Notes under the pieces: model-generated
Databases searched by the model: none
What the model was told of the DNA's origin: nothing
What the model saw: the letters and a program-made list of their open reading frames with translations, nothing else
Assembly: GCF_003019675.1 (NCBI RefSeq)
Contig: NZ_CP028105.1
Coordinates: 1,380,282-1,444,281, forward strand
From: Fusobacterium ulcerans
GTDB lineage: Bacteria; Fusobacteriota; Fusobacteriia; Fusobacteriales; Fusobacteriaceae
DNA: 64,000 nt
Direction of reading: 5' to 3'
Shown: piece by piece, positions 7,940 through 9,084 of the stretch
How the letters are laid out: every line of letters begins with the position of its first letter
Position numbering within the stretch: position 1 is the first letter of the stretch
Program-made: the position numbers and the translations under genes

Positions 7940-7944
7940 ATATT

Positions 7945-8002
7945 AAAAGCAGAGAAGGTTTTGTCTAGTGAGTGTACTAGACTTAAAATTTCTGCTTTTT
8001 TT
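7945..8002 (+). terminator. Terminator after the Hpt gene
   Basis: AAAAGCAGA (7945-7953) pairs with TCTGCTTTT (7991-7999). An inner hairpin GTCTAGT/ACTAGAC sits in the loop, and a T run follows. Confidence 0.88.
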
Positions 8003-8116
8003 ATATTTTAAAGAAAAAAATTACTTTAAGAAATAATTTAAAACGGACAGTTCTCATTTGTATAAGAAAGCGAACATTAACAGACTTTAAGTCCTTATTT
8101 TTTCAGTACTTGTTTT

Positions 8117-8145
8117 TTGACACTATTAAAAATTACATTTATTTT
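8117..8145 (+). promoter_or_regulatory. Upstream promoter inside the inverted-repeat segment
   Basis: Perfect TTGACA (8117-8122), a 17-base spacer and TATTTT (8140-8145, 4 of 6). It reads toward the HU genes. Confidence 0.45.
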
Positions 8146-8150
8146 TTAAG

Positions 8151-8179
8151 TTGATATTTTTAATATTAAAGAGTATAAT
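8151..8179 (+). promoter_or_regulatory. Main promoter of the HU pair, inside the inverted repeats
   Basis: TTGATA (8151-8156), a 17-base spacer and perfect TATAAT (8174-8179). The right repeat arm (8204-8229) would lie in the 5' end of the transcript. Inversion of 8050-8229 would turn this promoter away from the HU genes. Confidence 0.72.
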
Positions 8180-8349
8180 AAGATGGAAAAATACTTTTTA
8201 AAAGTTCGCTTTTTTATACAAATGAGAACACTTGCATAATTATTTGGATTATAGAATATTTTCGAAGTGTGAAACAGAGATTAAAATATAAATATATAAA
8301 AGAGAATAATTATAGAGAAAAATTAAAATATAATTCTATTGGAGGAAAA

Positions 8350-8646
8350 ATGACAGAGACAGAATTTATTAAATTTTATAAAGAAAGAAATGGACTTAAA
8401 AGTAAGAAAGAAGCGAAAGAAAAAATAGATAATTTCTGGAAGGCATTATTTAAAGCTATAGATGAAGATAAAAAAGTAGTATTTAAGAATTGGGGAATAT
8501 TTGAAGAAAAAGATGTAAAATCAAGAAAAATAGTGATTCCAAAGCATCCAAAAGAGATATATACTCAACCTAAAAAAGTATTAAAATTTAGAGCAGGAGA
8601 AGGATTAAAAAACTCAGTGAGCAGAAGAGGTGAAAGCAGTGAATAA
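8350..8646 (+). CDS. HU/IHF-family DNA-binding protein
   Basis: A 98-residue histone-like protein that bends DNA as a dimer. The N-terminal half is the helical dimerisation body (MTETEFIKFYKERNG...). The second half has the HU beta-arm region VVFKNWGIFEEKDVKSRK, the proline-containing arm tip IPKHPKEIY, and the closing KKVLKFRAGEGLKNSV. I chose ATG at 8350 because GGAGGAA precedes it directly; an earlier in-frame GTG at 8269 lacks a ribosome site and adds residues foreign to HU. It overlaps the next HU-like gene by eight bases. The two differ, so they may form a heterodimer like IHF. Expression depends on the promoter held between the 26-bp repeats. Confidence 0.88.
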   Translation: MTETEFIKFYKERNGLKSKKEAKEKIDNFWKALFKAIDEDKKVVFKNWGIFEEKDVKSRKIVIPKHPKEIYTQPKKVLKFRAGEGLKNSVSRRGESSE

Positions 8647-8920
8647 AAGAAGATTTGCAAAAGTATACAGGGACTTGAGCAATGAAAAGATTGATATAAA
8701 TCGGGCATTAAAAGAGATAGAGAATTTTTTAAAAACAATAGAAGAAGCTTTGATAGCTGATGGAAAAATAAAGTTTATAGAAAAAGGAACTTTTGAAATA
8801 TTGGAAAGAAAGCCAAGAATAATATCAAATCCACTAACAAGAGAATTGATGACAATATATCCCAAGAAAAGTGTAAAATTTACTTCTTCAAAAAAATTAA
8901 ACAAAAAAGAAGCTGACTAA
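8639..8920 (+). CDS. Second HU/IHF-family DNA-binding protein
   Basis: A 93-residue HU-like protein divergent from its upstream neighbour. It shows the HU body followed by IKFIEKGTFEILERK, the arm segment SNPLTRELMTIYP and the closing KKSVKF. GTG at 8639 is chosen as start because AGAGGTG lies seven bases upstream and the resulting N-terminus (MNKRRFAKVY) fits HU; an in-frame GTG at 8630 has no ribosome site. It overlaps the first HU gene, so the pair is translationally coupled and probably made in equal amounts. A bidirectional terminator follows 110 bases later. Confidence 0.85.
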   Translation: MNKRRFAKVYRDLSNEKIDINRALKEIENFLKTIEEALIADGKIKFIEKGTFEILERKPRIISNPLTRELMTIYPKKSVKFTSSKKLNKKEAD

Positions 8921-9030
8921 AATTATTTGTTTTAGCTAGCTTTAGATAAGTATGTATTGTTTATTGAATAAGTTTAAGGAAGATTTTTTGATTTTAATAA
9001 AAATACAATAGAATGAAAAATAGTATATTA

Positions 9031-9057
9031 AAAAAAGCTGAATATCAGCTTTTTTTA
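9031..9057. terminator. Bidirectional terminator between HU and reductase genes
   Basis: AAAAAAGCTGA pairs with TCAGCTTTTTT around a short loop, giving T runs on both strands. It serves the plus-strand HU pair and the minus-strand reductase. Confidence 0.85.
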
Positions 9058-9084
9058 ATATGTATATAGATAATAATAAAATAT

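Follow-up and report, generated by a model that had tools for sequence, protein, structure and literature searches.

An invertible promoter is a known kind of switch. In Bacteroides fragilis, Mpi, a serine recombinase, reportedly acts on invertible promoters for surface molecules genome-wide, as Coyne is said to have described in 2003 in a paper listed in PMC11868660. In Escherichia coli, the fimS promoter is inverted by a small tyrosine recombinase that lacks the N-terminal domain of lambda Int, so as to control a surface adhesin, and IHF is essential to the process (PMC9993118); in Clostridioides difficile one recombinase, RecV, inverts several genome sequences, including the switch before the regulator cmrRST (PMC8844915). 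As to Fusobacterium, 44 T5SS autotransporters are given for F. varium Fv113-g1 and 32 for F. ulcerans ATCC 49185 in a report on the former strain, whose text lacks the word stem ‘invert’ and uses ‘phase’, in the passages displayed, for growth phase and for extraction rather than for phase variation (PMC5720691). In the literature searched on Fusobacterium invertible promoters, DNA inversion and invertons we found no description of a system such as that discussed here; published inverton catalogues could include some of its loci.

We consider it very probable that positions 8050–8229 of the window (the whole 64,000-nucleotide stretch of F. ulcerans DNA analysed) constitute an invertible promoter which is flipped by a short tyrosine recombinase, likeliest the protein we term TR-A2 or a relative, and which is one of a genome-wide set. 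With fimS and its FimB–FimE enzymes it would share promoter inversion, a FimB-sized tyrosine recombinase (here a candidate) and a surface adhesin target; however, fimS has 9-bp repeats, a single locus and a housekeeping IHF, whereas here we see 26-bp sites, many loci and HU/IHF-like genes placed under the switches. The multi-locus inversion recalls the RecV system as described, but phylum and sites differ, and the genes under the switches here are chiefly autotransporter-like ones and HU/IHF-like pairs. Whereas Mpi is a serine recombinase, a tyrosine recombinase is indicated here by the identical 6-bp core and by the candidate enzyme.

At the locus itself, the arms at 8050–8075 (GTTCTCATTTGTATAAGAAAGCGAAC) and 8204–8229 (reverse complement GTTCTCATTTGTATAAAAAAGCGAAC) are inverted with respect to each other, are identical at 25 of 26 positions and enclose 128 bp (8076–8203), a layout shared by the orthologues in three sister genomes (L050, L051 and L052). 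The left site, on the forward strand, is made up of a 10-bp half-site, the core GTATAA and another 10-bp half-site, and belongs to a genome-wide site family; the right site, on the reverse strand, has the same core when inverted, and the single mismatch between the arms (position 17) lies outside this 6-bp core. Both arms are partial dyads of the form GTTCKCNTTT – 6 bp – AAANGMGAAC, and the window holds two matches to the 26-bp site with up to three mismatches (none in 100 shuffles). The enclosed segment carries, on the forward strand, the main promoter at 8151–8179 (TTGATA-17-TATAAT, 11/12 consensus), which faces the HU pair, is the best promoter of the stretch and, when aligned with the orthologues from the three sister genomes, proves near-invariant in four species in its hexamers and most of its spacer. 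A second promoter-like match on the same strand at 8117–8145 (TTGACA-17-TATTTT, 10/12 consensus) is not conserved and is probably unimportant. A terminator-like inverted repeat (7940–8004; arms 7940–7953 and 7991–8004) separates the upstream gene from the switch.

The initial annotation of this DNA had described a 26-bp inverted pair around 128 bp, a partial dyad in each arm, two promoters facing an HU-like pair and that pair downstream. The arms were found again at 25/26 and the dyads reappear as a half-site consensus around the 6-bp core; both promoters are present on the forward strand, and conservation across the four species extends to the one at 8151–8179 and not to the one at 8117–8145. 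The HU-like pair was likewise confirmed, since both proteins score above the curated cut-off of PF00216 (Bac_DNA_binding; E 1.1e-13 and 1.1e-14): gene 1 occupies 8350–8646 (98 aa) and gene 2, which has a GTG start and overlaps gene 1, occupies 8630–8920 (96 aa), both on the forward strand. In the NCBIfam ranking IHF alpha is nearest to both, with a score under its cut-off, and the HU and IHF equivalog cut-offs are unreached. A search of a genome contig collection with the first HU protein gave no match, probably since close relatives are excluded from it. A GTG at 8269 was rejected as the start of gene 1; the ATG at 8350 and its GGAGG are conserved across species. A likely terminator with a 17-bp perfect stem follows the pair (9025–9061). 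The pair at 8350–8920 stands alone, without an autotransporter, whereas at most other switches an autotransporter-like gene comes first and a HU/IHF-like pair follows. Since its neighbours are kept in sister genomes (the downstream FMN-reductase-like gene in G008, G009 and G010, the upstream GGDEF gene in G008 and G009), we regard the solitary pair as an old arrangement.

The site family extends well beyond the window. In the 3.54-Mb genome of the window (G000) the 26-bp site has 12 matches with up to three mismatches and its reversed control none, and a degenerate site pattern gives 70 strand-hits as against 4 in the control. These matches form at least 17 inverted pairs around promoters, with start-to-start distances of 142–207 bp, and a few more are single or widely spaced. 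With a degenerate pattern at two mismatches, the sister genomes G008, G009 and G010 have 43–46 forward hits each and the other 57 genomes of the family 0 to 2 per strand, so that the sites are abundant in 4 of 61 genomes. There would be about 17 to 25 such switches per genome, the HU locus being one of the set, and they seem to turn giant surface proteins and HU-like genes on and off in a group of gut Fusobacterium species. At one locus (L036:2630-3531; G000:C1:2934129-2935030) the two sites lie 876 bp from each other and enclose a 153-aa transposase-like ORF, as if an insertion sequence had entered the switch.

When pairs were selected by the outer half-site letters alone, with the core left out of the selection, positions 11–16 of one arm matched those of the other, read in inverted orientation, in all 42 scorable pairs, that at the HU locus included, and in none of the 42 in direct orientation; shuffling gave a mean of 7.4 and a maximum of 15 pairs in 2000 trials. 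After removal of near-duplicates the identity held in 22/22 pairs (shuffle mean 3.8, maximum 13 in 5000). Eleven core strings, or seven if strand is ignored, occur among the 42 pairs, and at the HU locus the core, which is the same in both arms within each species, is GTATAA here and ATATAA in L147, L051 and L052. Outside the core, identity falls to the level of unrelated pairs at most positions, with positions 7, 17, 20, 21 and 22 staying somewhat higher. A fully identical 6-bp region between 10-bp half-sites falls within the 6–8 bp of strand exchange in FimB/RecV-type systems. A tyrosine recombinase requires identical strand-exchange regions and a repressor does not; since the cores match within pairs yet vary between pairs, they argue for site-specific recombination over mere binding.

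Related loci are moreover found in opposite orientations. Homologous flanks with the interior turned round were seen in L029 as against L031, L128 and L129, and in L131 (958543 of G008) as against eleven autotransporter switches that belong to G000 and G008; among the loci so related, 2099442 and 2279891 have flanks that are 82–88% alike and interiors that are reversed (87% alike on opposite strands). A further comparison, of L136, L140 and L141 with L150, was left uncounted, with interiors just 72–75% alike against flanks 93–98% alike. Judged by consensus match, the autotransporter switches of G000 that have a clear promoter have it pointing away (OFF), with 2099442 ON on a weak match; by the same measure 958543 is the clear exception to the OFF state in G008, where at the switches 1140060 and 3333651, which precede HU-like genes, the better promoter also points away. 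One further strain fragment, found among viral contigs, carries an autotransporter switch in the OFF orientation. The HU locus is ON, as judged by the consensus promoter match, in 4/4 orthologues, with none reversed, and two related solo HU loci are likewise ON. The idea of site-specific inversion put forward in the initial annotation gains support from core identity and opposite orientations for the set as a whole; at the HU locus itself the four species show ON only, and both orientations were seen only at homologous members of the set.

We suggest that TR-A2 or a relative would bind the two inverted 26-bp sites and that strand exchange inside the identical 6-bp cores would flip the 128 bp. 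In the assembled orientation the promoter at 8151–8179 would transcribe the overlapping HU/IHF-like genes (ON); flipped, it would face the upstream terminator-like stem at 7940–8004 (OFF). We infer the flipping of the HU locus, the identity of the recombinase and the silencing in the flipped state.

Considering other explanations, the two 26-bp dyads might be operators at which a repressor loops the 128 bp, the HU genes and autotransporters forming one ordinary regulon; the sites are indeed palindromes of 26 bp that stand on either side of promoters and recur genome-wide, but operators give no reason for the central 6 bp to match within pairs yet differ between them (42/42), nor can a repressor reverse the enclosed DNA, yet homologous loci show opposite orientations, and we regard this explanation as very improbable. 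Just as little commends the view that the pairs are the ends of small mobile (MITE-like) elements that carried promoters to positions before genes: terminal inverted repeats, a total length of ~170–260 bp and interiors similar in several copies would suit it, but the interiors of many unrelated loci are unalignable, interior and flanks are co-homologous at paralogous loci, the cores are private to each pair and no target duplications were obvious on inspection (without systematic scoring) of the printed flanks, so that we hardly credit it. The possibility that the HU locus is a former switch locked ON, its sites being relics while other loci still invert, concerns this locus in particular and draws on the ON state in four species and at the two related solo HU loci, and on the arm mismatch at position 17. 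However, that mismatch falls outside the core, and the arms stay 24–26/26 identical within species while their sequence has changed between species, which would be unexpected for relics; we hold such locking to be unlikely.

Even if the HU locus inverts, the enzyme may be another than TR-A2. The initial annotation was right that the window encodes no recombinase, in that 1380282–1444281 contains no PF00589 or PF00239 protein; elsewhere the genome encodes nine PF00589 proteins, three of them short. TR-A2 (2057857–2058453, outside the window) is FimB-sized, with 198 aa, and TR-A1 (3280797–3281393) is 75% identical to it; the TR-A proteins match PF00589 and have the conserved R, K, HxxR, H and Y residues. 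TR-A proteins of 73% identity or more are confined to the four site-rich genomes, but more distant relatives (47–56%) turn up where the sites are absent, so that co-occurrence cannot by itself identify the enzyme. Inversion by TR-A1, TR-B, a Xer protein or the large serine recombinase of the genome is a possibility of some substance, though not the one we favour: TR-A1 resembles TR-A2 closely and is found in the same four genomes, and several tyrosine recombinases are encoded. TR-A1 was nevertheless demoted as the main enzyme, for it is a pseudogene in G009, where 46 sites per strand are kept, and sits on a cassette of its own, whose 27-bp repeat is a different one; TR-B (189 aa, 3006125) was rejected as a dedicated enzyme, being genus-wide and present also in genomes without sites. 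Since the TR-A1 copy is broken in G009 while the 26-bp sites abound there, TR-A2 is the better of the two candidates and, most likely, the best candidate invertase for the 26-bp sites.

The cassette of TR-A1 is itself invertible (27-bp repeats; L151:6677-7481, G000:C1:3280676-3281480; also in L153, L155 and L157), and in G008 and G009 its segment has the opposite orientation to that in G000 and G010. The adjoining cluster (L151:3243-5201; G000:C1:3277242-3279203) holds two FadA-family adhesin genes (PF09403), small lipoprotein-like genes and a HU pair. In G008 a HU pair is followed, 0.9 kb further on and on the same strand, by a TR-A2-like gene, and TR-A1 is ~3 kb from a HU pair.

Most switches precede large autotransporter-like proteins with a common N-terminus, so called by sequence resemblance; the one 904-aa stretch of this kind that was searched against Pfam gave no match. 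HU pairs lie ~3–4 kb downstream of most autotransporter switches on the same strand, according to coordinates (two were read out). Other targets, several of which are also named from sequence resemblance alone, are a polysaccharide chain-length-like gene, an outer-membrane protein (PF13505), a MBOAT-like acyltransferase gene and a sugar-biosynthesis-like operon. At G000:C1:271343 and 2372032 (L022 and L032), ~95%-identical copies of a switch sit between a HU pair and a MBOAT-like acyltransferase gene. Near-identical modules (MENKRNTKNQPFCWQEKK..., MELKMKKCEYCGKEYVKN..., 79-aa protein) precede the autotransporter switches at L019, L024, L033, L037 and L165, one of them in an IMG/VR contig, and the autotransporter cassettes may have spread with a prophage-like or mobile module.

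Finally, the position of HU/IHF-like pairs inside phase-variable operons and beside recombinase genes, together with the essential role of IHF at fimS, suggests that these pairs have a role in the switching itself. More tentatively, and with rather less than an even expectation of being right, we propose that they are phase-variable architectural cofactors which, when made from an ON locus, could promote, bias or block inversion or transcription at other switches and in this way coordinate the choice of adhesin through a switchable nucleoid protein. The findings suggest that DNA inversion controls much of the autotransporter surface in the F. ulcerans/F. varium group. A reference assembly would then represent one state per switch, and comparisons of expression between cultures may mislead. 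If true, genes for DNA-bending proteins inside switches would add an unusual layer of phase-variable regulation.
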